Source of the DNA: Gammaproteobacteria bacterium
Lineage (GTDB): Bacteria > Pseudomonadota > Gammaproteobacteria > GCA-2400775
Direction of reading: 5' to 3'
DNA: 36,400 nucleotides
NCBI GenBank assembly: GCA_016765075.1
Contig: JAESQP010000147.1
Coordinates: forward strand, 1-36,400
A program made the translations under genes and the position numbers. The notes under the pieces are model-generated. The model worked only from the letters and a program-made list of their open reading frames with translations. It was not told the origin of the DNA and searched no databases. How positions within the stretch are numbered: position 1 is the stretch's first letter; each line of letters starts with the position of its first letter. Below, in pieces: positions 3,843-16,427 of the stretch.

Positions 3843-5543
3843 CTATTTTCGGTTCCACTCGTATGTTGCTTCAACTTGGTTGCCATTGCTACGATAGTTC
3901 ACTGATTTACAAAGAGACTTCACTAGAGCAATGCCACGTCCGGAATAGCCTTGGTTTGATTTTAGGATATTGAATACGGCGTTATGATTGAAGCCCGGTC
4001 CGCTATCATTGACCTTAATAATAAGTTTGCCAGATGTTTGGTTGCTGTTGGGCTGGTGATTGAGCTTAATGTCTATCTGTCCGTCTTCCAATTTGGCAAG
4101 ACGCTTCTCGCGTAAACGGTAATATTCGGCAAAGCCTGTCGCATTGGATTTCATGGCTGAATCAACGCCGAGCAGGCCGTGATCAAGTGAGTTAGAAAAC
4201 AGTTCACTTAAAATTGTAAAGATGCGTTCGCGATGACCTTGTGGCGCCTGCACCCCCATGATCAAATTAAGCAAAAGAGGAACTGGGTTAACAGTTTTGA
4301 GCGTGTCGGCATTAAGTCGCAATGACAAATTCCAGGTTGATGGTGCCATTCTGTTTTGACTTTTTGAGTCTTGATCTGCACGCCATGTATCGTTGATAGC
4401 GGTACTTATCTCAGCGATTGAAATATCATCAGACTGATCGCAGCCAGCGGTATAAGTTTCTAGGTTGTTTAGCAGATTGCTGAGTGGTGGGTCGCTTAAG
4501 GCGGCTTGAGGAAACTGTGAGTGCAAGTTTTTCATACCGAATTTTCGGCCACGGTGATTTTTTGCCTCGATTAGCCCATCAGAGTAGATATAAATTTTGT
4601 TGAATTTGTTGACAGGAATGATCTCTGTCTTGCGTTCAAATTTATCTTCTGGTCGAACCCCCAATGCTTGGTGGCTGGACACTATATGGTGTTCGATATT
4701 GCCATTTTTACCTGTAATCAGTATATCTGGCATGCCACCGTTCCAAATGCTGGCAGTGGTGCGTTCAAAATCTAATTCGACAATACTTGCGGCGCAAAAC
4801 ATACCCGTGGGGAGAATATTGAATAGTCGTCGATTCATTTCGGCAGCTATATCACCAATAGAGAAGCCGCTAGCTGTCATGGTGTAAAAAATATCCGAGG
4901 TTGGCATGGCACCAATCGCTGCGGACAGGCCATGACCCGTAAAGTCACCTAACATGATATGCATGCCACCAGAAGGGGTGTGTGCACAGAGTAAAATATC
5001 ACCACTAAACAGTGACATGGGCGACAAATAATAGTTAATGCTGGTGTGCTTGAGGTCGCCACGATCAAGAATAGTGGAAAAAACATGTTCGGCAATACTA
5101 AGTTCGCGTTGGGCACGATTTTTATGTTTTTGCAGTTGTGTGGTTTGGTCATTCAGTTTTTCGTGTAGTTTTTGAATGCGTGCCATTGCTGCGATTTTTG
5201 CAAGCAAAGCATAGTGATCGTAGGGGCCGGAAAGTATGTCATCACCGCCACACTCGATGCATTTTCCCAACACATCGCTGCCAGTTAATGTGGTGATGAA
5301 AATGATAGGTACAAAGCGGTCTCCGCATAGAGCCTTTATTTGTGAAGTGGCGACATAGCCATCCATTTCTGGCAATACTACATCCATCAATATCATGTCA
5401 GGTTGTTCGGCTTTAAATATTGCGACAGCCTCAACCCCATCACCAGCGAGAATGACTTCATGCTTGTCTTCCAGAAGGATTGATTCCAGGATTCTACGTT
5501 TGTAGATGGTGTCTTCAACAATAAGAATTCGCATTAAGGTCAT
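3843..5543 (-). CDS. HsbR/CrsR-like response regulator: REC, SpoIIE phosphatase, anti-sigma HATPase
   Basis: A 566-residue cytoplasmic partner-switch regulator. Residues 1-125 form a receiver domain with acidic pocket E10/D11 and phospho-acceptor D54. A coiled coil at about 128-150 follows. Residues about 160-375 are a PP2C/SpoIIE serine phosphatase with metal-binding motifs GDFTGHGL and SDDIS. Residues about 410-565 are a GHKL ATPase related to anti-sigma kinases, with N-box ELFSNSLDHG, G1 NDSGPGF and G2 GRGIALVK. This order matches Pseudomonas HsbR and Shewanella CrsR, which dephosphorylate or phosphorylate a STAS partner and so control sigma factor availability. The STAS partner is encoded directly upstream. 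Oddity: the receiver Lys expected before Pro (KPF-type motif) is Gly106 (LSGPYD), so phosphorylation signalling may be altered. An internal ATG three codons in (5534) starts MRILIVEDT and may be the true start. Confidence 0.9.
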   Translation of the reverse strand: MTLMRILIVEDTIYKRRILESILLEDKHEVILAGDGVEAVAIFKAEQPDMILMDVVLPEMDGYVATSQIKALCGDRFVPIIFITTLTGSDVLGKCIECGGDDILSGPYDHYALLAKIAAMARIQKLHEKLNDQTTQLQKHKNRAQRELSIAEHVFSTILDRGDLKHTSINYYLSPMSLFSGDILLCAHTPSGGMHIMLGDFTGHGLSAAIGAMPTSDIFYTMTASGFSIGDIAAEMNRRLFNILPTGMFCAASIVELDFERTTASIWNGGMPDILITGKNGNIEHHIVSSHQALGVRPEDKFERKTEIIPVNKFNKIYIYSDGLIEAKNHRGRKFGMKNLHSQFPQAALSDPPLSNLLNNLETYTAGCDQSDDISIAEISTAINDTWRADQDSKSQNRMAPSTWNLSLRLNADTLKTVNPVPLLLNLIMGVQAPQGHRERIFTILSELFSNSLDHGLLGVDSAMKSNATGFAEYYRLREKRLAKLEDGQIDIKLNHQPNSNQTSGKLIIKVNDSGPGFNHNAVFNILKSNQGYSGRGIALVKSLCKSVNYRSNGNQVEATYEWNRK

Positions 5544-5583
5544 CCATGGGTGGGGTGTGAGCTTCTCTAAGCTAAGGGGTTAA

Positions 5584-5892
5584 TTAATGAATGTGAAACA
5601 TTTGTTGAAAATTAGCAATTTTAAGTATTTCTCTAATTTCAGATCGGCAATTAACAATACTGATATCAGCACTTTCCCCACCAGCTGATTCTCGTAATAA
5701 CAGCAACATACCCAGTGCAGAGCTATCTAGATCTTTGACTGATCCCAGGTCAACTGTGTATTTAGAGTAATTATTGCTGTTGGCTGCTGTCAGGGCTTCG
5801 TGAAAGTCCTCATGGGAATCAAAATCAAAATGTCCAGTAACCCGAATGTATACTTCGCTTGAGTTATCTCGTATATCAATGTCCATGCTCAT
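5584..5892 (-). CDS. STAS-domain anti-anti-sigma factor, HsbA/CrsA-like
   Basis: A 102-residue single STAS-domain protein. The conserved phosphorylation loop reads LDSSALGM, with the likely phospho-serine at S57, as in SpoIIAA, RsbV and HsbA. The start is the ATG at 5892 (MSMDIDIRDN), preceded by AAGGAG with a 7-nt spacer. The frame extends upstream to 6009, but that extension has no ribosome site and no STAS similarity. It lies 40 bp upstream of the phosphatase/kinase gene and downstream of an MCP gene on the same strand, so the three are probably one transcript. By family analogy its phosphorylation state, set by the neighbouring protein, decides which partner it binds (in Pseudomonas the anti-sigma factor FlgM). 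The real target here cannot be read from the sequence. Confidence 0.9.
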   Translation of the reverse strand: MSMDIDIRDNSSEVYIRVTGHFDFDSHEDFHEALTAANSNNYSKYTVDLGSVKDLDSSALGMLLLLRESAGGESADISIVNCRSEIREILKIANFQQMFHIH

Positions 5893-6005
5893 GGGGTGTC
5901 TCCTTAATTTTCTATTGTTGATACAGGATGAATTATTTATCAAAAATCTTATGTTTGTGACAGCTTGACCAGATGTACTGCTGGCATAGCATGTCAAGGT
6001 TGAGA

Positions 6006-7262
6006 TCAAAATAGATCAATTTCGCCTGTCGTCATATCCTCTTGTTTTACTGGTGTGGTTTCTAGCTCTTTAAGTCTGTTGATGCTATTGAGTACGTCTT
6101 CCTGCAAACGTTCGAGGGCTTGTTCAGCTGCTAAAGAATCAGTATTGGTAATGTGCTCGTGTCTGTTTGCTTTTTCCATAGTGCCTAGAGCATCATCTAG
6201 TACGCTCAAACGCTTTTCGATATGGCCGCCTAGTTGGGTAACAATATCCTCGAATTGCAATGAAGTTATTGCCAAAGCGACCTTGTTATCTATTTCTTCT
6301 ACCATTTCTTCAACTACAGATAGCTTTGATGTTGCGTTATCGTGGAAATCATTAATTCCTTCCATAGTGGCGGATATTTTTTTCTTGGAGTTGAGCATAA
6401 TTTTCATATCTTTTGATGCAATGTCACTAACTACACCGCGCGCATTTTGAATGCCTTGCATGGCGCCTGACACGACACAGTTAATTTCATTACTGAATTG
6501 ATCTGACCGATGGGACAGTGCGCGAACTTCTTCAGCGACAACAGCAAATCCTCTGCCAAACTCGCCTGCGCGAGCTGCTTCAATGCTGGCATTTAGGGCC
6601 AATAAATTGGTTTGGGCAGCGATGCTCTTTATGTCGCTAAGTAATGTCATAACCTGACTGATTTGTGTGTACATATCATCAAGTTGGTATACCAGCCGCA
6701 TACTTTCCTTGCTGGTGTCGATAATCGTATCGACGAAGTAGTGTAGGGTGACTTCTGTGTCACTGATAAATTTTTCTATTGTTGCTTCATCGCTAGCGTC
6801 ATCCCCTGTATTAGTGCCTGCCATATCTTTCAACAAACCAACCAGCACCTCTTTTTCTGCTTGTGACTGCTGGCTAATACCCTGAAAGCTTTCAGCTAAA
6901 CCACCAATTGCATTAGATACCACGTTGCGATATCGCTCTACATCGCTACTAATATTGTGCATCTCGTCATGCATGGCCAGTGATAGCTGATTATGCAGTT
7001 GTTGCTGACGATTATGATTTGGATGAGTATTATCGCTGGTGATTTTTTGATTTTTCTTGTTCTTTCGAGGTGGCTGGCGAACATTGAAATATACAGCTGT
7101 CAGCGCCCAGGCAAGTGCAGTGGCAGCGGTAACATCGAGAGAAAGACTGTGGTTTTGTGAGAAAAGGATCAACCAGGCGGAAAATACACTACAAAGAGTG
7201 GCTGGTAGATAACATAGAAATATCAGCAAAGATGTAGAGGGTGCTGAATAATTTGGTCTCAT
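6006..7262 (-). CDS. methyl-accepting chemotaxis-like receptor without a periplasmic domain
   Basis: A 418-residue receptor. Two closely spaced N-terminal helices (about 12-34 and 44-60) flank a short loop, so there is no sizeable periplasmic sensor. A basic stretch (RKNKKNQK) follows on the cytoplasmic side. Most of the rest is coiled coil, with the canonical MCP tip [19 protein letters not shown] near 215-233, then [26 protein letters not shown] motif lies near 330-340. The protein ends in GEIDLF, nearly identical to the end of CheD in this window (GEVDLF). It heads the operon that encodes the STAS and phosphatase/kinase proteins and has a sigma-28-like promoter upstream. The signal could be sensed in or near the membrane, or by protein contact; I cannot tell which. 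Confidence 0.9.
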
Positions 7263-7401
7263 TTTAATATCCTTATCAACCCAGAGATCGCTTGGTCTCT
7301 TATCTCCATTTCCAACGGAAGAGTGATTGCTTGGCTATGGCCGAACCCATCCGGGTGAGCCCCTTTGTTGAGCAGCAAACCTGACCTTAATCTAAGGTTG
7401 G

Positions 7402-7428
7402 CTATCGGCAAATTGTCATGTAACTTGA
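7402..7428 (-). promoter_or_regulatory. sigma-28 (FliA)-type promoter for MCP-STAS-phosphatase operon
   Basis: On the minus strand TCAA (7428-7425) is followed after exactly 15 nt by GCCGATAG (7409-7402). The sigma-28 -10 consensus is GCCGATAA, and a TCAAG-type -35 is used by Pseudomonas FliA. Seven of eight -10 bases match. Transcription would start near 7395, about 130 nt before the ATG at 7262. Inferred from sequence only. Confidence 0.65.
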
Positions 7429-7667
7429 GTGATTGATGAGTGTAAAATTTACTAAGGGAATAGTATTTTTAAGGTAAATCATTATGATGATAGCCATGAC
7501 AGTTACTTGGTGTAATGATTTGTTTGATGCGCCGTATTGTAGGACAATTCATATTTATTTCATTTGACTCTGGGTCTGGAAATAGAAAAAAATGTATATA
7601 ATAAAGCCCCTCGCTCTTGCAGATAAAAATAACAATAAAAAATTTATTGGAGAGGTTGTTTTTTAGT

Positions 7668-7694
7668 TAAAGTCTAATTAGATTGAGCCGCTAT
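7668..7694 (+). promoter_or_regulatory. sigma-28 (FliA)-type promoter for che operon
   Basis: TAAA (7668-7671), 15-nt spacer, GCCGCTAT (7687-7694; 6 of 8 match to GCCGATAA). Transcription would start near 7701, just ahead of an AGGA ribosome site and the ATG at 7725. The geometry supports that ATG over the TTG at 7683 as the start of the first gene. Confidence 0.55.
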
Positions 7695-7724
7695 CTTTTT
7701 CGTAATGGATTTAGGATAGTGGTT

Positions 7725-8042
7725 ATGGAAGAACCTAATACAGTCTTATGTGACGAAGAGCTTGGCATAGCGAATGCTCAAGACTTCAGTCAAACACTCC
7801 ACGATGCTTTTCTCACTGGAAAAGCCACTATCGTCGATTTATCAAAAACTCAACGCATCGATACGACTATTGCGCAATTGATTTGCTTATTTAATCGTGA
7901 TGCGCAAGAACAGAGTCGTGATTTCGAATGGCGTTATTCAGACGCCGTTGCCGATACCCTGAGAATTTTAGGCCTGAAAAACCATCTTCATGCTTATGAG
8001 TCGTGTTCGTCTGTAGAGAACAATAATGATGGAGAAAAATAA
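7725..8042 (+). CDS. STAS-domain protein heading the che operon
   Basis: A 105-residue single STAS-domain protein. The loop that carries the phospho-serine in anti-anti-sigma factors reads RIDTTIAQL here, so threonine replaces serine. It may be a structural or scaffolding STAS protein, or may be phosphorylated on threonine. The ATG at 7725 is chosen because AGGA lies 8 nt upstream and a sigma-28-like promoter ends just before it. It is the first gene of the rightward operon, 61 bp before cheY, as in several marine gammaproteobacterial che clusters that begin with a small STAS gene. Its partner is unknown. The HATPase domain of the divergently encoded HsbR-like protein is one candidate and CheA is another. 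Confidence 0.8.
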   Translation: MEEPNTVLCDEELGIANAQDFSQTLHDAFLTGKATIVDLSKTQRIDTTIAQLICLFNRDAQEQSRDFEWRYSDAVADTLRILGLKNHLHAYESCSSVENNNDGEK

Positions 8043-8103
8043 GAATGTTTCGGCAGACAATTATGAGAATCTGGATTCACATATTTAGGTTTGGAGACGA
8101 AGC

Positions 8104-8466
8104 ATGGCAAGTATATTAGCAGTCGATGATTCGGCATCGATGCGTCAAATGGTGACATTCACTCTTAAGGGCGCTGGCTATGATGTAACTGAAGCAAAGG
8201 ATGGCCAGGAAGCCTTGACTAAAGCCAAGTCCGCTCGTTTCTCGCTGGTGATTACTGATATTAATATGCCCAATATGGATGGTATTACACTGACTAAAGA
8301 ATTACGTTCACTGTCTGCGTATAAATTTACGCCTATTTTAACTCTGACTACTGAGTCATCGGCTGAGAAAAAACAGGCGGGCAAAGCGGCGGGCGCGACA
8401 GGGTGGATAGTGAAGCCCTTTAATCCCGATCAGCTACTGGCTACGGTAAAAAAAGTTTTAGGGTAG
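8104..8466 (+). CDS. cheY: chemotaxis response regulator CheY
   Basis: A 120-residue single receiver domain. CheA phosphorylates it and, by family knowledge, CheY-P binds the flagellar motor switch. All key residues are present: acidic pocket D8/D9, acceptor D52 in ITDINMPNMDG, switch threonine T82, and conserved lysine K104 in VKPFN. The start is supported by GGAGA nine to ten bases upstream. The gene stops 4 bp before cheA starts, so the two are cotranscribed. No CheZ phosphatase gene is in this window. CheD and CheB are present. Confidence 0.95.
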   Translation: MASILAVDDSASMRQMVTFTLKGAGYDVTEAKDGQEALTKAKSARFSLVITDINMPNMDGITLTKELRSLSAYKFTPILTLTTESSAEKKQAGKAAGATGWIVKPFNPDQLLATVKKVLG

Positions 8467-8470
8467 CGCG

Positions 8471-10711
8471 ATGTCTATTGATATGAAGCAGTTTCACCAG
8501 ACCTTCTTTGATGAAAGCTTTGAAGGTTTGGATATTATGGAGGCCAGCTTGCTCGGCCTTGAGGTTGGTGCTGCTGATACGGAGATTGTTAATACTATAT
8601 TTCGTGCCGCACACTCGATAAAAGGAGGTAGTGGCACATTTGGCTTTAGCGAAATTGCCTCCTTTACTCATGTACTTGAGACCTTATTAGATAAAATGCG
8701 TGAGGGCTCACGTGACGTAACGCAGCACGCAGTAGATTGTTTGCTACGGTCAGTTGACTGCGTACGTGAAATGCTTGCAGCAGCAAGTGACGATGCTGAG
8801 GTAGATACAGCAGCAGTTACTGAGATACAGCAGCAACTAGAGGCAATTTTAAATTCTGATGAGGGGGCGCAACCGGCTCAAGACTCCGTACAAAATACTG
8901 GGCAAAATGTTGAGCAAGATACTGTCTTGTCTACAAAAGCTGAGGTGAAACAGGTAAGTGGGTGGTCTATCCATTTCGTTCCTCATATCGGAATGTTGAC
9001 GACAGGTAATGACCCAGCCAGAATGTTTCGTGTGTTAGAAGAGTTGGGCGAGCTATCAGTTGAGGCTGATATTTCAGGCTTACCGAGCCATGACGAGTTT
9101 CACCCGGAAGACAGTTATATTGCCTGGCAGCTTACGGTCAAAGGCGACGCTAGCCGCGAGCAAATAGAAGATGTTTTTGAGTGGGTCGAAGACGATTGTG
9201 ATTTAGAAATTGTTGCGCTTGAGGCGACTATTGAGCCTGCCGTGACTGCAGAGCCAGAGCTAACATCAGCAGCGGTTAAAGACACGGCGGAAGTAGAGCG
9301 TCGCACAGAAGGAGACCGACGTCAGTCTGGTGATCGTAGGCAGAGCAGTGATCGCAGGGCCGCTAAGCAAACTGGTTCTGAAAGTGCCTCGATTCGTGTC
9401 AACATCGACAAGGTTGACGATATTATTAATCTGGTTGGTGAATTGATAATCACCCAATCTATGCTTGGCCAGGTGGGTGCCGAGCTGGAAGCTGAAGACC
9501 ATGCTCAAGGTGATACAGATTGTTTGGAACGTTTACGTGTCGGTTTGGGGCAGCTCGAGCGTAATACGCGCGAATTACAAGAAAGTATTATGCGTGTTCG
9601 TATGCTACCAATCAGTTTTGTTTTTAGTCGTTTCCCTCGCATGATCCATGATTTATCCAGCAAGATGGATAAACACATCGAACTAGTGATTGCTGGTGAG
9701 CAGACAGAGCTTGATAAAACCATTATGGAAAAAATTGGTGATCCACTGGTTCATTTAGTTCGTAATTCAATCGACCATGGTATCGAAACACCGCAAGAGC
9801 GTATTGCGGCTGGTAAACCAGAAACCGGAACCGTTTCACTGAATGCCTACCATCAGGGTGGCAATATTGTGATAGAGATCCGCGATGATGGTAAAGGTCT
9901 GGATAGGGAGAAAATTCTTGCCAAGGCGCGTCAGCGTGGATTGATTCAAGGCGATGAGTCAGTGCCTGATGAGAAGGTCTATGACCTGATTTTTCAACCG
10001 GGATTCTCCACTGCCGACGTGGTAAGTGATGTCTCTGGCCGTGGTGTTGGTATGGACGTAGTGCGTCGTAACATCAGAGACTTGGGCGGCAATGTTGAAA
10101 TACAATCTGAATCAGGTGGTGGCACCACCATACTAATTCGTTTGCCATTGACATTGGCAATACTGGATGGCCAGTTAGTCAGTGTTGGCGAACAAACTTA
10201 TGTTGTTCCGTTAACATCAATTATCGAGTCCTTACAGATAAGGAGAGATCAAATTAAAACAGTTGCTGGGCAAGCTCAGGTTTATTTATTGCGAGATGAA
10301 TATATCCCGATTATTCGTCTCAGTGATAGTTTCGATATTCCTACTCGTACTGCTGATCTGGATGGTGGTTTGATGGTGGTTGTAGAAGGGGGTGGTCAAA
10401 AAGCAGGTTTGGTTGTTGATGACCTTCTGGCACAACAGCAAGTCGTCATTAAGAGTTTAGAGACAAACTTTAAGCGTGTCGATGGCCTTTCAGGGGCAAC
10501 GATTCTAGGTAATGGCACTGTGGCAATGATCCTCGATGTTGGCGGTTTGATCGTCTATTCCAAATCAATTGATCCTGCTTTGATACGTTCCCGTAGAAGT
10601 CGCGACGAAAAAATTATGCGACCAGAAACAGATTCATATCTGCAAGAAAATGAGACTGTGATGATGCAAATGAATAAGGAGACTGCGAATGAGTGCAATA
10701 CAGTCCATTGA
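8471..10711 (+). CDS. cheA: chemotaxis histidine kinase CheA
   Basis: The 746-residue array kinase, full length. P1/Hpt domain at 1-105 with phospho-histidine H48 in AAHSIKGG. An acidic linker is followed by a compact domain at about 165-265 (starting WSIHFVPHIGMLTTGNDP), which takes the place of a classical P2 domain. A basic repeat linker with three DRR units (near 276-297) follows. The P3 dimerisation helices begin at about 305 (VDDIINLVGELI). The P4 ATPase has N-box HLVRNSIDHG, G1 DDGKG and G2 SGRGVGMDVVRRN. The P5 CheW-like domain occupies the last 140 residues. All catalytic motifs are intact. The last 23 bp overlap cheW, whose ribosome site AAGGAG lies inside cheA, so translation is probably coupled. 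Confidence 0.97.
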   Translation: MSIDMKQFHQTFFDESFEGLDIMEASLLGLEVGAADTEIVNTIFRAAHSIKGGSGTFGFSEIASFTHVLETLLDKMREGSRDVTQHAVDCLLRSVDCVREMLAAASDDAEVDTAAVTEIQQQLEAILNSDEGAQPAQDSVQNTGQNVEQDTVLSTKAEVKQVSGWSIHFVPHIGMLTTGNDPARMFRVLEELGELSVEADISGLPSHDEFHPEDSYIAWQLTVKGDASREQIEDVFEWVEDDCDLEIVALEATIEPAVTAEPELTSAAVKDTAEVERRTEGDRRQSGDRRQSSDRRAAKQTGSESASIRVNIDKVDDIINLVGELIITQSMLGQVGAELEAEDHAQGDTDCLERLRVGLGQLERNTRELQESIMRVRMLPISFVFSRFPRMIHDLSSKMDKHIELVIAGEQTELDKTIMEKIGDPLVHLVRNSIDHGIETPQERIAAGKPETGTVSLNAYHQGGNIVIEIRDDGKGLDREKILAKARQRGLIQGDESVPDEKVYDLIFQPGFSTADVVSDVSGRGVGMDVVRRNIRDLGGNVEIQSESGGGTTILIRLPLTLAILDGQLVSVGEQTYVVPLTSIIESLQIRRDQIKTVAGQAQVYLLRDEYIPIIRLSDSFDIPTRTADLDGGLMVVVEGGGQKAGLVVDDLLAQQQVVIKSLETNFKRVDGLSGATILGNGTVAMILDVGGLIVYSKSIDPALIRSRRSRDEKIMRPETDSYLQENETVMMQMNKETANECNTVH

Positions 10712-11252
10712 CGAAAGCTACCCAGTAGTGGGGGTGGATATCAATGCTGATATGGATCAGTATTTGACCTTTATTCTTGCAGACGAAGAGTATGGCGTAG
10801 ATATTTTACGGGTTCAAGAGATCAAAGGGTGGGGTTCTGTGACGCCCATACCCAATACTCCGGAATTTATTAAAGGGGTGATTAATCTTCGTGGAACAAT
10901 TGTTCCAATTATTGATTTGCGCCAGCGATTTGGCCTGGAAAAAACAGATTATGGGAAGCTAACTGTTGTTATCGTTTTAAATATTATTTGTGAATCTGGT
11001 GAGCGTGTTATGGGCATTATCGTTGATGCCGTGTCAGATGTTTACAATGTGACGGAAGAAGAGATGAAGCCACCACCTGATTTTGGCAGTGTTGCCGCTA
11101 TCGACTATGTCAAAGGTCTGGCGACGATTGGTGAGAAGATGGTGATTGTATTGGATATTGATCATTTATTAACAAGCAGTGTTTATGAGTCGATTCACAA
11201 TTCAGCTCGCCCAGACTTGATTAAAGGCTCCCCAGAGCTGAATTCTACTTAA
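10689..11252 (+). CDS. cheW: chemotaxis coupling protein CheW
   Basis: A 187-residue adaptor that joins receptors to CheA P5 in chemosensory arrays. The CheW fold begins at about residue 23 (QYLTFILADEEYGVDILRVQEI) and includes the hallmark GVINLRGTIVPIIDLRQRFG. The first 20 residues are an unstructured leader. The ATG at 10689 lies 7 nt after AAGGAG and overlaps the cheA 3' end. Two tandem genes of the same operon, cheA before and a PAS receptor after, give it an obvious partner on each side. The tail of about 20 residues beyond the fold shows no motif. Confidence 0.95.
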   Translation: MSAIQSIDESYPVVGVDINADMDQYLTFILADEEYGVDILRVQEIKGWGSVTPIPNTPEFIKGVINLRGTIVPIIDLRQRFGLEKTDYGKLTVVIVLNIICESGERVMGIIVDAVSDVYNVTEEEMKPPPDFGSVAAIDYVKGLATIGEKMVIVLDIDHLLTSSVYESIHNSARPDLIKGSPELNST

Positions 11253-11327
11253 TTAGGGGTTGCCAAAGTTTTAAAAACAGTGTCCGCAACAATGTTAGCG
11301 GTGTATAAGGATATGGAGGAAGGTGCA

Positions 11328-13679
11328 ATGGTTGCCAGCAGAAAAGAACTTAATATTGATCTTGATGATTCAGGTTTGCTTGCTAGTGAAGAGCAGATAA
11401 GTCGATTACAAACAATGGTAGATGGCGCGCAGAGCGCACTGATGACCATTGATAGAGACCTGATCGTCACCTATGTTAATAATGCAGCGAAAAAACTTCT
11501 TGCTCGTCATACAGTGGGATTAAAGCAACTCTATCCTGATTTCCCTACGGATCGTTTGGTCGGTAGCTGTATCGACATATTGCTTAAAAATTCGACAGAC
11601 CAACGTGGTATTTTTAATGACTCATCAAACCTTCCATTTGATTCGGACATTGATGTTGGGCCATTGAAGTTTCATCTTCATGTGACTGCCATACAAGACA
11701 CCCATGGTGAGTATGTAGGCAGCACCCTGGAATGGGCAGACATCACCGAAAAGAGTGCATTAGCCAAACTCAATGCAGACTACCAGGGCAAGATTGAAGC
11801 TATTAATAAATCGCAGGCGGTTATTGAATTCAATATGGATGGCACTATTCTGACTGCCAATGATAACTTCCTTAATACCTTGGGTTATACACTTATGGAA
11901 ATCGAAGGTAAGCATCACAGTATGTTTGCCGAGGCGGGCTATGCCAATAGCGCTGAGTACAAAGCCTTTTGGGAAAAACTCAATCGTGGTGAATACGATA
12001 CGGGTGAATACAAACGCGTCGGCAAGGATGGCAAGGAAGTCTGGATACAGGCCTCCTATAACCCGATAGCAGACCTTAATGGTAAACCCTTCAAAGTGGT
12101 GAAATACGCCACCGACGTGACTGATGTCAAATTAAAAAGCGCCAATTTCGGTGGTCAGATCGAAGCCATTAGTAAATCGCAGGCGGTTATTGAATTCAAT
12201 ATGAATGGCACTATTCTGGCTGCCAATGATAACTTCCTTAATACCTTGGGTTATACATTTTCCGAAATCGAAGGTAAGCATCACAGTATGTTTGCCGAGG
12301 CGAGCTATGCTAATAGCTCTGAATATAAAGCCTTTTGGGAAAAACTTAATCGTGGTGAATACGATACGGGTGAATACAAGCGTATTGGCAAGGGTGGTAA
12401 AGAGGTTTGGATTCAGGCTTCCTATAACCCGATAACTGACCTTAATGGTAAAGCCTTCAAAGTGGTGAAATACGCCACCGATATTACAGAACAAAAACAT
12501 GCTCTCAATCAAATTCAAAATTTAGTCAATGGCGCTGTCAAAGGTGAGCTTGATCAACGGATAAACACAGAGCAATACGAAGGATTTGTACGCGACTTGG
12601 GAGAGGGAATCAATGTTTTAATGGACTCTGTGGTAGAACCTGTTAAAGAGGTCGGTCGTGTCATGAAGGCTCTGGCGGCAGGTGATGTCGCACAATCCAT
12701 GGACGGCGAATTTCGAGGCGAGTTTGCTGGCTTAAGGGATTCGGTGAATTCGACAATGGGTAATTTGTTAGATGTTGTAGTCAAGATACGTGAATCGTCT
12801 AATAGTATTAGTTCTGCCGCGAATGAGATTGCTCAGGGTAATCAGGATCTCAGTCAGCGTACTGAGCAACAAGCGACTTCTTTACAAGAGACCGCATCCA
12901 GCATGGAAGAGCTTACTTCTACTGTCAAACAAAACGCCGATAATGCCGTGCAGGCTGATCAGCTTGCAGTGGGTGCGCGTGAGCAAGCTGAAAAAGGTGG
13001 CAGTGTAGTCAGTGATGCCGTCAGTGCGATGAATGAAATTAACTCGGCCAGCAAGAAAATTGCTGACATTATCGGTGTTATTGATGAAATCGCTTTTCAG
13101 ACTAATTTACTGGCTTTGAATGCTGCAGTGGAGGCGGCGCGCGCAGGTGAGCAGGGTCGCGGTTTTGCAGTCGTCGCATCAGAAGTGCGCAATCTCGCAC
13201 AACGTAGCGCCAGTGCGGCGAAAGAAATTAAGACATTGATTAATGACAGCGTTGAAAAAGTAGATGAAGGGTCAAAACTGGTCAACAAATCTGGTGCTAC
13301 GCTAGAAGAGATTGTGATCGCAGTGAAAAAAGTCGGAGACATCATTGCCGAGATTGCTGCCGCCAGTAAAGAGCAATCATCAGGCATCGATCAAATCAAT
13401 ATCGCTGTAGCGCAAATGGATGAAGTGACACAGCAGAATGCAGCGTTGGTTGAAGAAGCTGCGGCAGCCAGCGAGTCGGTTAATGATCAAGCCAATGGTC
13501 TTGATGAATTGATTGGTTTTTTCAATACAGGTGATGAGGTTGTTAATACATCACAGCCAGCAAGGCGCGTCGCACCACAACGTCGTGTTGTTCAGAGTGT
13601 TGCTGCGCGCGCTCCAGCGAGGAAGCGCGCACCTTCTACCGTTACCAATGAAGGGGATGGTGAGTGGGACGAATTCTAA
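11328..13679 (+). CDS. soluble methyl-accepting chemotaxis protein with three PAS domains
   Basis: A cytoplasmic receptor of 783 residues with no membrane segment. PAS 1 spans about 20-140. PAS 2 and PAS 3 (about 154-267 and 276-387) are near-identical tandem copies sharing [11 protein letters not shown] and [14 protein letters not shown]-like segment precedes the MCP signalling domain (about 485-725), which has tip [21 protein letters not shown] and flanking QxxE-type methylation helices ([19 protein letters not shown]). The last five residues are EWDEF, fitting the xWxxF pentapeptide that tethers CheR in other bacteria; cheR is the next gene. The architecture resembles BdlA/Aer2-type redox or oxygen sensors, but the bound cofactor, if any, is not evident. 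The ATG at 11328 has GGAGG 8 nt upstream and is preferred over a GTG at 11280. Confidence 0.93.
11790..12488 (+). repeat. tandem duplication of a PAS-domain coding unit
   Basis: Two in-frame copies (about 11790-12122 and 12156-12488) lie exactly 366 bp (122 codons) apart within the PAS receptor gene. Long runs are identical at the DNA level, for example TCGCAGGCGGTTATTGAATT at 11811 and 12177, and synonymous differences are few. This points to a recent duplication or ongoing gene conversion. Confidence 0.9.
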
Positions 13680-13820
13680 CTTGTTTTTCTCCCAAAGTTT
13701 CGCAGCAGAAACTGAATAAGATATACGAGCTAGAGTTTAATTTCATAATTGTTCGCTGAAATAATGAGCTTTAGTTTTCTATTTTATAAAGATAAAACGT
13801 AGTGTGTTGGAGAAGTTATT

Positions 13821-14678
13821 GTGGAAAATGTGGTGGACCGTAGTTCATCATCCGTGTTTGAGTTTACTGATGCAGACTTCCAAAGTGTCCGCCATTTAGT
13901 CAAAAAAAATACGGGTATCTCTTTGTCTGAGGCCAAACGCGATATGGTTTATTCGCGTTTAGTCAGACGTTTACGCGAATTAAATATTCAGCGTTTCAGT
14001 GATTATTTGGCACTTATCGGTAGTGACGGTGCTGATGATGAACTTATTCAATTTACCAATGCGATCACGACTAATCTAACATCATTTTTTCGCGAGAATC
14101 ATCATTTTGAGTATCTTGCCGAGACATTACTGCCTGAGTTAATGAAAAAGAAAGCCGCTGAACGAAAGATCCGCATCTGGTGTTGTGCCGCCTCAACCGG
14201 GGAAGAACCCTATAGCATTGCTATGGTTGTTAATGAGGTCATTGCCAGAAACAGTGGCTGGGATGTCAAAATTCTTGCAACGGATCTGGATACCAATGTG
14301 CTCGCAACAGCTGAAAAGGGCGTCTATTCAATTGACCGTGTTAAAGATATTTCCGATCGCCGCCAGCGACGATTTTTTTTAAAAGGCAGTGGTAGTCATC
14401 AAGGTTATGTTCAGGTCAGGCCAGAGTTACGTCAACTCATTACCTATAAAAAACTTAACTTGATGGATGAGTGGCCTATGAGCGGCCCGATAGATATTAT
14501 TTTTTGTCGAAACGTAGTGATCTATTTTAACAAAGAGACACAAAGAGTTCTTTTGGAACGGTTTGCCCAGTTAGTGGCACCAGAGGCGCATCTGTTCATG
14601 GGGCATTCTGAGTCACTGAGTAATGTTAGCGATCAGTTTCAACTTTTAGGAAAAACAATATACAGGTTTTCTGCGTGA
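13821..14678 (+). CDS. cheR: chemoreceptor methyltransferase CheR
   Basis: A 285-residue S-adenosylmethionine-dependent methyltransferase that methylates receptor glutamates. The N-terminal helical domain (about 12-85, TDADFQSVRHLVKKNTGISL) is followed by the SAM-binding domain with CAASTGEEPYSIAM, the DLD of ILATDLDTNVL, and the DIIFCRNVVIYFN motif. Length is typical. The start is a GTG at 13821 with GGAG 8 nt upstream. The stop overlaps the cheD start by 4 bp (GTGA). The 141-bp gap from the upstream PAS receptor gene holds no gene and no clear terminator, so read-through transcription is likely. Confidence 0.96.
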   Translation: MENVVDRSSSSVFEFTDADFQSVRHLVKKNTGISLSEAKRDMVYSRLVRRLRELNIQRFSDYLALIGSDGADDELIQFTNAITTNLTSFFRENHHFEYLAETLLPELMKKKAAERKIRIWCCAASTGEEPYSIAMVVNEVIARNSGWDVKILATDLDTNVLATAEKGVYSIDRVKDISDRRQRRFFLKGSGSHQGYVQVRPELRQLITYKKLNLMDEWPMSGPIDIIFCRNVVIYFNKETQRVLLERFAQLVAPEAHLFMGHSESLSNVSDQFQLLGKTIYRFSA

Positions 14679-15337
14679 GTGCCGCAACAGCATGCGCGCG
14701 CTTTTCGGTGACACAGACATCAGAGTGCCCCCCTGCTTTGCCTGGTTTTGAGCATATTCATCGTTATTGGGATAAAACCCGAGGTAAATATGCAGCAAAA
14801 ATACACCCTGGTGAGCTTTATGTTACCCATACCAGTGAGTTGATATCAACGGTGTTAGGGTCATGTATCGCGGTGTGTATTCGTGATCCTGCCAAGGGAA
14901 TAGGCGGTATGAATCATTTTATGCTGCCAGCGACCAATAACAAAAAGCTTTCTATTGGTGCAGATCTTAGTGCGGCAGCACGTTATGGAAATTTTGCCAT
15001 GGAGCATTTGATTAATTCCATCCTGCGTTTTGGTGGCAGTAAGGCCAGATTCGAAATAAAGGTATTTGGTGGCGGTAAGGTTCTTGCCCAAATGACCAAT
15101 ATTGGCTTACAAAACATTAAGTTTGTGCGTGATTACATCAGTATTGAGGGTTTAAAAATTGTTGCCGAAGACACAGGTGGAATTCATCCGCGTAAAGTTG
15201 TTTATAACCCTATTTCTGGCAAGGTTGCCATGAAGAAATTAAAGGCGATACATAACAATACAATTGAAGCGCGCGAGACTCGCTACCGAGACGGGTTGTC
15301 ATTAAGCAAGGTTGAGGGGGAGGTTGATCTCTTTTAG
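14675..15337 (+). CDS. cheD: chemoreceptor glutamine deamidase CheD
   Basis: A 220-residue CheD, which deamidates receptor glutamines and in some bacteria interacts with CheC-type phosphatases. The catalytic cysteine C64 (LGSCIAVCI) and histidine H81 (GGMNHFMLP) have the 17-residue spacing of the Thermotoga enzyme. The first 40 residues form an extra N-terminal leader. The C-terminal extension ends in GEVDLF, matching the end of the MCP encoded at 6006-7262 (GEIDLF). That suggests both dock on the same partner. GTG start, overlapping the cheR stop by 4 bp; cheB follows after 13 bp. Confidence 0.93.
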   Translation: MSAATACARFSVTQTSECPPALPGFEHIHRYWDKTRGKYAAKIHPGELYVTHTSELISTVLGSCIAVCIRDPAKGIGGMNHFMLPATNNKKLSIGADLSAAARYGNFAMEHLINSILRFGGSKARFEIKVFGGGKVLAQMTNIGLQNIKFVRDYISIEGLKIVAEDTGGIHPRKVVYNPISGKVAMKKLKAIHNNTIEARETRYRDGLSLSKVEGEVDLF

Positions 15338-15350
15338 GGGACAGAAAAGG

Positions 15351-16427
15351 ATGAATAGCAAAGCACCTATACGCGTACTTATCGTCGATGACTCGGCGTT
15401 GATACGGCAGTTATTAAGCAAAATTTTGTCCGATGACCCTGGCATTGAGGTTGTCGCTACGGCAAATGATCCTTATATCGCACGTGAAAAAATCAAGTTG
15501 CTTGAGCCTGATGTGATAACACTTGATGTTGAGATGCCACGTATGGACGGTATTACTTTTCTGCAAAATCTCATGCGCTTACACCCCATCCCCACCATTA
15601 TGGTGTCATCACTCACCACCAAGGGTGCAGATGTGACAATGCGGGCCTTGGAGCTTGGAGTTATCGATTTTGTCACCAAGCCAGGTGGGGATGTGACGCG
15701 CTTGCTCGAAGTGTTTTCTGAAGAAATTATCGCCAAAGTCAAAATGGCTGCCAGCGTTTCCAAAGAAGCCTTGTTACGTAAAGCAGATCAGGCGAGAAGA
15801 GTGCCCCGTGCGGCCAATAATAGTGCCACCTTGGCGGCAAGCGCGACACATTTCAAAACCACCGACAAGTTGATTGCGATAGGCGCCTCAACTGGCGGCA
15901 CTGAAGCGATCAAGGAAGTACTTATGCAGCTACCGCACGATTCGCCAGGTGTGGTGATTTCTCAGCATATTCCCCCTTTGTTTAGTGCGTCCTTTGCAGC
16001 ACGCATGAATGACGTGTCGGCGTTAGTGGTTTGCGAAGCGCAGGACGGTCAGCAAATACTCAATGGGCATGCTTATGTTGCGCCCGGTGATCAACATTTA
16101 AAAGTTGAGCGCAATGGCACTCGGTTTATCTGCAAGCTGGATGACAGCCCGCCAGTGAATCGGCATAAACCCTCGGTTGATGTTATGTTCGGTTCTATTG
16201 CAGACAATGTTGGAAACAATGCCGTGGGCGTTATATTGACAGGCATGGGTCATGATGGCGCGCAAGGCTTAAAGAAAATGCACGACCTTGGTGTTGCAAC
16301 TATCGCACAAGACGAGAAGACAAGTATTGTCTGGGGTATGCCCGGATCAGCGGTAAAGCTTGGTGCAATTGATACTGTTTTGCCGCTGGACAAGGTTGCC
16401 GGAAAAATTATTACTCTTGTTAAATAA
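15351..16427 (+). CDS. cheB: chemotaxis methylesterase/deamidase CheB
   Basis: A 358-residue response regulator enzyme that removes receptor methyl groups. The receiver domain has D13/D14 and acceptor D59 (ITLDVEMPRMDG). A linker of about 40 residues leads to the esterase with the catalytic triad Ser (IGASTGGTEAI), His (SQHIPP) and Asp (GMGHDGAQG). The ATG at 15351 opens MNSKAPIRVLIVDDS, with AGGGGA upstream, and is preferred over a TTG at 15312 inside cheD. It ends the operon. No pronounced terminator stem follows; only a weak TATAG/CTATA stem can be drawn before the convergent gpmA. Confidence 0.96.
   Translation: MNSKAPIRVLIVDDSALIRQLLSKILSDDPGIEVVATANDPYIAREKIKLLEPDVITLDVEMPRMDGITFLQNLMRLHPIPTIMVSSLTTKGADVTMRALELGVIDFVTKPGGDVTRLLEVFSEEIIAKVKMAASVSKEALLRKADQARRVPRAANNSATLAASATHFKTTDKLIAIGASTGGTEAIKEVLMQLPHDSPGVVISQHIPPLFSASFAARMNDVSALVVCEAQDGQQILNGHAYVAPGDQHLKVERNGTRFICKLDDSPPVNRHKPSVDVMFGSIADNVGNNAVGVILTGMGHDGAQGLKKMHDLGVATIAQDEKTSIVWGMPGSAVKLGAIDTVLPLDKVAGKIITLVK

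Follow-up and report, generated by a model that had tools for sequence, protein, structure and literature searches.

An F7-class chemosensory cluster beside a CrsA/CrsR-like partner switch, and a CheZ-like motif in its McpA-like protein

In stage-1 clusters of the F7 class of chemosensory systems, the gene order is anti-sigma antagonist, cheY, cheA, cheW, aer2-like receptor, cheR, cheD and cheB, followed by an mcpA-like gene, an anti-sigma antagonist and a serine phosphatase (Ortega et al. 2020, PMC7184735). At the ancestral stages 1 and 2, F7 systems were reported to occur without cheZ, and McpA to be dispensable for F7 arrays; what the ancestral arrays do was stated as open, and so was the role of the McpA C-terminus, whose striking conservation was noted there without an assigned role (PMC7184735). 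Cluster III of Vibrio cholerae (VCA1088 and che genes) belongs to stage 1 (PMC7184735). In the che1 cluster of Shewanella oneidensis, F7 cheYAW-aer2-cheRDB genes are combined with mcpA (SO_2117) and the genes for the STAS protein CrsA and the REC-PP2C-HATPase protein CrsR; CrsR controls RpoS, and an involvement of Che1 in RpoS control, i.e., a linkage of array and switch, was already proposed (PMC9855816). The same REC-PP2C-HATPase and STAS architecture is found in the HptB-HsbR-HsbA system of Pseudomonas, with an Hpt phosphorelay as input and FlgM as output (PMC6482189).

Here we describe a locus on a stretch of 36,400 nucleotides (the window) from a gammaproteobacterium (contig JAESQP010000147.1 of assembly GCA_016765075.1), in which an F7-class (non-flagellar-type) chemosensory cluster lies next to an operon encoding an McpA-like protein, a STAS protein and a REC-PP2C-HATPase protein (the trio). 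The trio is homologous to mcpA-crsA-crsR of Shewanella and to the three genes that close Vibrio cluster III. A coupling of the array to the switch is plausible and, having been proposed for F7 systems before, not new; new are the setting without detected rpoS, a C-terminal tag shared by McpA and CheD, and a CheZ-like DxxxQ motif in McpA, which suggests that McpA may be the missing phosphatase of phosphorylated CheY (CheY-P) in F7 systems.

Gene content and class of the locus

The three genes of the trio lie in a row on the minus strand and were confirmed by Pfam matches, as a sequence-only reading of this stretch had claimed. The McpA-like gene (6006-7262) encodes a protein of 418 amino acids (MCPsignal, 6e-28) that lacks a periplasmic domain and has two hydrophobic helices at its N-terminus, the signalling tip of a methyl-accepting chemotaxis protein (MCP) and a C-terminal helix with the sequence QFEDIVTQ. 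The CrsA-like STAS anti-sigma-factor antagonist (5584-5892; 102 amino acids; STAS_2, 4e-13) likely starts with the ATG at 5892, which has AAGGAG ahead of it, while the listed TTG at 6009 would cause an overlap with the McpA gene. The CrsR-like protein (3843-5543; 566 amino acids) is composed of REC, PP2C (SpoIIE) and HATPase domains (5e-19, 5e-32 and 1e-7). The earlier reading also correctly described the trio as divergent from a full che operon, STAS2-cheY-cheA-cheW-(PAS)-MCP-cheR-cheD-cheB (7725-16427). It had overlooked the gene for the second STAS protein (STAS2, 7725-8042), the loss of the receiver lysine (G106) and the shared C-terminal tags.

The window has the gene content of an F7 cluster of stage 1 or 2 (Ortega 2020), and the F7 class of its CheA was assigned from this gene content and from the similarity to the Vibrio F7 CheA. 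Its McpA-like protein combines an MCP tip, a transmembrane region and the conserved C-terminus and adjoins the F7 cluster, and its REC-PP2C-HATPase and STAS pair lies within an F7 che locus with mcpA, as CrsR and CrsA do. The layout mixes published stage-1 and stage-2 features. As in Vibrio cluster III, the same gene set with both STAS genes is present; however, the Vibrio cluster has two cheW genes and the trio downstream of cheB, whereas the window has one cheW and a divergent trio. In Vibrio sp. (L061), McpA carries the tag GEVELF and CheD the tag DDVELF. Shewanella che1 differs from the window, where STAS2 is present and the trio diverges on the 5' side.

To evaluate the distribution, 115 F7 cheD loci were compared (113 loci of a class survey, the window and one contig of the genus-mate G004), the counts being limited to the stretch fetched. 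All three genes of the trio were present in 25 of these loci and the STAS and CrsR pair in 34, and in most such clusters the trio is located downstream of cheB. Among the surveyed loci, a divergent 5' trio with retained STAS2 and a single cheW was found solely in the window's genus, with the same arrangement in genus-mate G001 (L057). The same cluster also occurs in Vibrio, Grimontia, Ectothiorhodospira, Thioalkalivibrio and one metagenome-assembled genome of Gemmatimonadota. The latter encodes, next to the F7 set and the trio, a CheR protein of 562 amino acids ending in SSVELF, maybe a CheR-CheD fusion (L072:5168-6856).

Downstream of STAS2 the plus-strand operon encodes F7 CheY (8104-8466), F7 CheA (8471-10711), CheW (10689-11252), an Aer2-like cytoplasmic PAS-HAMP receptor with the CheR-type pentapeptide EWDEF at its end (11280-13679), CheR (13821-14678; named by similarity to the CheR set instead of a Pfam scan of the gene), CheD (14675-15337) and CheB (15312-16427). 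The F7 receptor is about 160 amino acids shorter than those of the genus-mates G001, G003 and G004 (958-961 amino acids), and the additional N-terminal part in G001 looks globin-like. In the divergent intergenic region between both operons (7263-7724) an Rfam scan gave no match to a riboswitch or other family, and promoter-like sites were no more frequent than expected by chance.

The CheZ-like motif and the C-terminal tag of McpA

The sequence QFEDIVTQ (Q336-Q343; 6234-6257, minus strand) corresponds to the CheZ catalytic pattern [FY]xDxxxQ. Q336, F337, D339 and Q343 (QFxDxxxQ) are invariant in 52 of 52 McpA sequences, all of which thus share with CheZ the catalytic D, a Q four residues apart and an aromatic residue at position -2. 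Besides QFxDxxxQ and the LF with which all 52 sequences end, the MCP tip and some residues near the N-terminus are invariant or nearly so (n = 52; checked also with 42 sequences). CheZ of the same bacteria reads [FY]QD[LI]TGQ, and D339 and Q343 fall on the catalytic D and Q of CheZ in a profile alignment with a score of 29.2, whereas none of 30 heptad-preserving shuffles exceeded 21.4 and the reversed profile reached 18.8. As in CheZ (PF04344), the motif is placed in a long helix, followed by a linker and a hydrophobic-acidic C-terminal peptide; unlike CheZ, McpA has an MCP signalling tip and membrane helices, and there is no significant sequence homology. In whole genomes the Pfam CheZ model reaches some short DxxxQ-bearing MCPs (E 1e-4 to 1e-2), and a CheZ hidden Markov model built here has as its top matches among non-CheZ open reading frames a mixture of McpA and Aer2-like coiled coils. 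An AlphaFold2 model of McpA (mean pLDDT 66, pTM 0.31) was not used.

The motif is not restricted to McpA. F7 clusters also encode small proteins of about 150-230 amino acids without MCP tip, in which [LF]QFxDxxxQ is combined with the C-terminal tag of McpA and for which a Pfam scan gave no significant family. The tip-less proteins that keep both motifs include two McpA-like remnants, L261 and L277. Among 80 full F7 clusters, a single McpA is encoded in 33 and two are encoded in two; 14 encode one small protein, one combines both kinds, and the stretch fetched from the other 30 contains neither. Proteins of about 190 amino acids with FQFYDxxxQ and the F7 tag (L204:11465-12061, L194:7788-8360, L185:2531-3103, L253:3500-4087 and others) are encoded between the receptor and cheR/cheD genes or at separate loci. 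Other MCPs of about 400 amino acids (L331, L332, L333, L335 and L336) have LQFQDxxxQ near the C-terminus, weak matches to the CheZ model and mostly related tails (ITFF, IEFF). The reported absence of cheZ at stages 1 and 2 of F7, together with the QFxDxxxQ motif, leads to the proposal that McpA and the small proteins may be CheZ-like CheY-P phosphatases.

McpA ends with the tag GEIDLF (6009-6026, minus strand), shared with CheD, which ends with GEVDLF (15317-15334). The degenerate pattern [DE][VI][DE]LF before a stop codon has two sites only in the 2-Mb assembly of this bacterium, those of McpA and CheD; this and the other genome-wide statements derive from family searches and pattern searches. 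The tag is carried by 40 of 41 McpA and 104 of 115 CheD proteins, and by 66 of 74 CheD proteins from clusters without local McpA. Whatever reads the tag must therefore belong to the core components, given that CheD retains it even where McpA or CrsR is missing; the candidates are CheY, CheB and CheR. In its strict form the tag occurs on 11 of 6419 other open reading frames of the loci, i.e., nine small DxxxQ-type proteins, one MCP and one GGDEF protein. In 24 whole genomes about 90 sites of the pattern were counted versus about 48 with the reversed control, and those outside F7 clusters that are readable as true in-frame gene ends belong to McpA-like, small DxxxQ, MCP or GGDEF-type proteins, one being of uncertain kind (L384). 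Tagged proteins read as GGDEF-type from their C-terminal sequence, not from a family scan, are L217:4076-5092, L337 and L343 (tails NDDIELF, NDIELF and GEIELF), one of them encoded immediately ahead of cheY within an F7 cluster. A D/E co-variation between McpA and CheD tags is weak (Fisher p = 0.04, uncorrected for related genomes). In the literature searched, no chemosensory paper with the tag sequences and no link between the McpA and CheD tags was found.

Input and output of the partner switch

The signature residues of a partner switch are preserved in the trio. Serine S57 in the D-S-S motif of the STAS protein (5722-5724) is intact, as the earlier reading had noticed, and 54 of 55 homologues have a Ser there. 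In the CrsR-like protein the Asp residues of PP2C and the N-box and G-box residues of HATPase are all there, and the REC residue D54 is retained (5382-5384). Its AlphaFold2 model (mean pLDDT 84) has RssB as best PDB fold, followed by the RsbU-RsbW protein Rv1364c. STAS2 as a second conserved phospho-substrate was weakened as a candidate: its phospho-site position is T in the window, and 28 of 77 homologues have A or G there. Nearly all homologues keep D60 (74 of 77) and Q65 (75 of 77) of STAS2 (numbering of the 119-amino-acid open reading frame).

The output would differ from that described for Shewanella. RpoS control by CrsR appears to have no counterpart here: in the window's order, all five genomes (5/5) are without a match over the RpoS cut-off, the matches being RpoD, RpoH and FliA; the sigma set of the bacterium itself comprises RpoD, RpoH, FliA and extracytoplasmic function (ECF) factors. 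The class survey comprised 370 genomes, and rpoS was detected in 261. Seven of the 25 trio clusters (in G000, G272, G154, G023, G248, G182 and G065) and nine of the 34 STAS and CrsR clusters are from genomes without detected rpoS. Therefore, sigma-S cannot be the general client of the switch. The rpoS-less genomes with the STAS-CrsR pair have FliA and in most cases FlgM, and both are present in the window's genome. Candidate clients are RpoH, an ECF sigma factor and FliA, the last either directly or by way of FlgM.

Regarding the input, the genome encodes four Hpt-domain proteins, i.e., F7 CheA, a second CheA beside cheZ-cheY, a hybrid kinase of 1276 amino acids and a REC-Hpt protein of 248 amino acids, and a search for the Hpt family gave no single-domain HptB. 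Because of the latter, F7 CheA would be a reasonable phosphodonor of the CrsR-like receiver. The partner-switch chemistry and the linkage to the che operon, which the earlier reading had interpreted as a possible path from the array to the switch, are supported. Its description of McpA as the operon's own chemoreceptor holds insofar as a receptor-like protein is encoded there; this protein may not be a simple array input, given its dispensability for F7 arrays (PMC7184735), its association with F6 in Shewanella (PMC9855816) and the CheZ-like DxxxQ.

Proposed mechanism and rival explanations

From the gene content, the intact catalytic residues, the invariant DxxxQ motif, the tag common to McpA and CheD and the lack of rpoS in the assemblies we infer an F7 array with a CrsA/CrsR-type switch, a client other than sigma-S and McpA as CheZ-like phosphatase, an explanation that we consider about equally apt to hold or to fail as a whole. 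The Aer2-like cytoplasmic receptor would drive F7 CheA via its PAS domains, and F7 CheA would phosphorylate F7 CheY and probably the CrsR-like receiver. The state of the receiver might set the balance between HATPase kinase and PP2C phosphatase activity at Ser57 of the STAS protein, which would compete with a sigma factor, in this lineage presumably not sigma-S, for the HATPase domain. McpA would probably be less an input receptor than an F7-docked CheZ-like CheY-P phosphatase, and the C-terminal tag may dock McpA and CheD on the same array component.

Several observations weigh against this explanation. The hhalign probability for McpA and CheZ is 28%, leaving CheZ homology not established, and the Pfam CheZ model matches only 3 of 42 McpA at E<=1 (best E 0.005) and does not reach the family cut-off. 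A local DxxxQ-tag protein is absent from the 30 of 80 full F7 clusters mentioned above, some of these genomes having one elsewhere. The conserved REC lysine is replaced by G106 in the window (5226-5228), while 39 of 42 relatives, both examined genus-mates among them, keep it; receiver control may therefore be degenerate here, which counts against a simple switch by REC phosphorylation in this genome and urges caution regarding phosphodonation by F7 CheA. Furthermore, the absence of RpoS is derived from draft assemblies that are 52-95.6% complete, and G003 (95% complete) has F7 che genes with CrsR undetected, its contig ending at STAS2. Finally, Shewanella McpA clusters with the F6 kinase CheA3 and its overproduction raises swimming, fitting a receptor role (PMC9855816).

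The last point would be expected if the locus were a plain CrsR/CrsA-like module, in which McpA serves the F6 flagellar array as an ordinary receptor and has only the operon in common with the switch, F7 CheA feeds the switch, and the DxxxQ helix and the tag are structural. The reported association of Pseudomonas McpA with F6 (PMC7184735) and the F6-type CheA-CheZ-CheY locus in the window's genome also agree with this. However, QFxDxxxQ and LF are as invariant as the MCP tip, and tip-less small proteins, the McpA-like remnants among them, keep both motifs in F7 clusters; we consider this explanation unlikely. An HsbR/HsbA-type flagellar switch, the type named by the sequence-only reading, would receive its input from an Hpt protein and act via FlgM and FliA. 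The common domain architecture and the presence of FliA and FlgM in this genome and most rpoS-less genomes with the pair are in its favor, and the flagellar neighborhood with a separate HptB, which the earlier reading had named among the conditions against its coupling idea, was found in part: related pairs of STAS protein and response regulator (RR) exist in Pseudomonas (L063, L064 and L071), at L063 within a flagellar locus (fliG...fliJ-STAS-RR-Hpt-...-fliL). Yet these pairs have no che neighbors and form a separate clade, whereas the genome studied here lacks a stand-alone Hpt and the trio has an F7 che neighborhood. HsbR/HsbA membership was hence rejected in favor of the F7 CrsA/CrsR context, and a switch of this type appears quite improbable.

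A further alternative concerns the tag only and is compatible with the other readings. The shared tail might represent a form of the CheR/CheB pentapeptide (E-W-E-x-F) in which W is replaced by V or I, and by which McpA and CheD would dock on CheB or CheR instead of CheY. This tail can be aligned to the Aer2 pentapeptide EWEEF/EWDEF, CheB2 binds GWEEF weakly (PMC7698151), a 2025 review places Mlp44 in System III and proposes binding to CheR3 via E-W/V-E-x-F (PMC11940527), and the tagged CheD of clusters without local McpA likewise calls for a core component as reader. In contrast, P. aeruginosa McpA interacts with none of four CheR homologues (cited in PMC7184735), and we regard this variant as possible but somewhat doubtful.

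Returning to McpA as a CheZ-like phosphatase, a broader reading is put forward tentatively, with less than even confidence. McpA-like and small tip-less proteins would be the missing CheY-P phosphatases of the ancestral F7 arrays, mimicking CheZ by a QFxDxxxQ helix, a linker and a docking peptide. [DE][VI][DE]LF might serve as a general F7 address label, present on CheD, some MCPs and GGDEF proteins, that gathers methyl-modification, dephosphorylation and cyclic-di-GMP enzymes on one array component beside the sigma-factor switch. With its ties to CheD on one side and a CheZ-like motif on the other, the McpA C-terminus has a role that is testable with peptides and purified proteins alone. Moreover, the retention of the switch in rpoS-less genomes means that RpoS is not its only client, and these genomes offer a clean setting to find another one.

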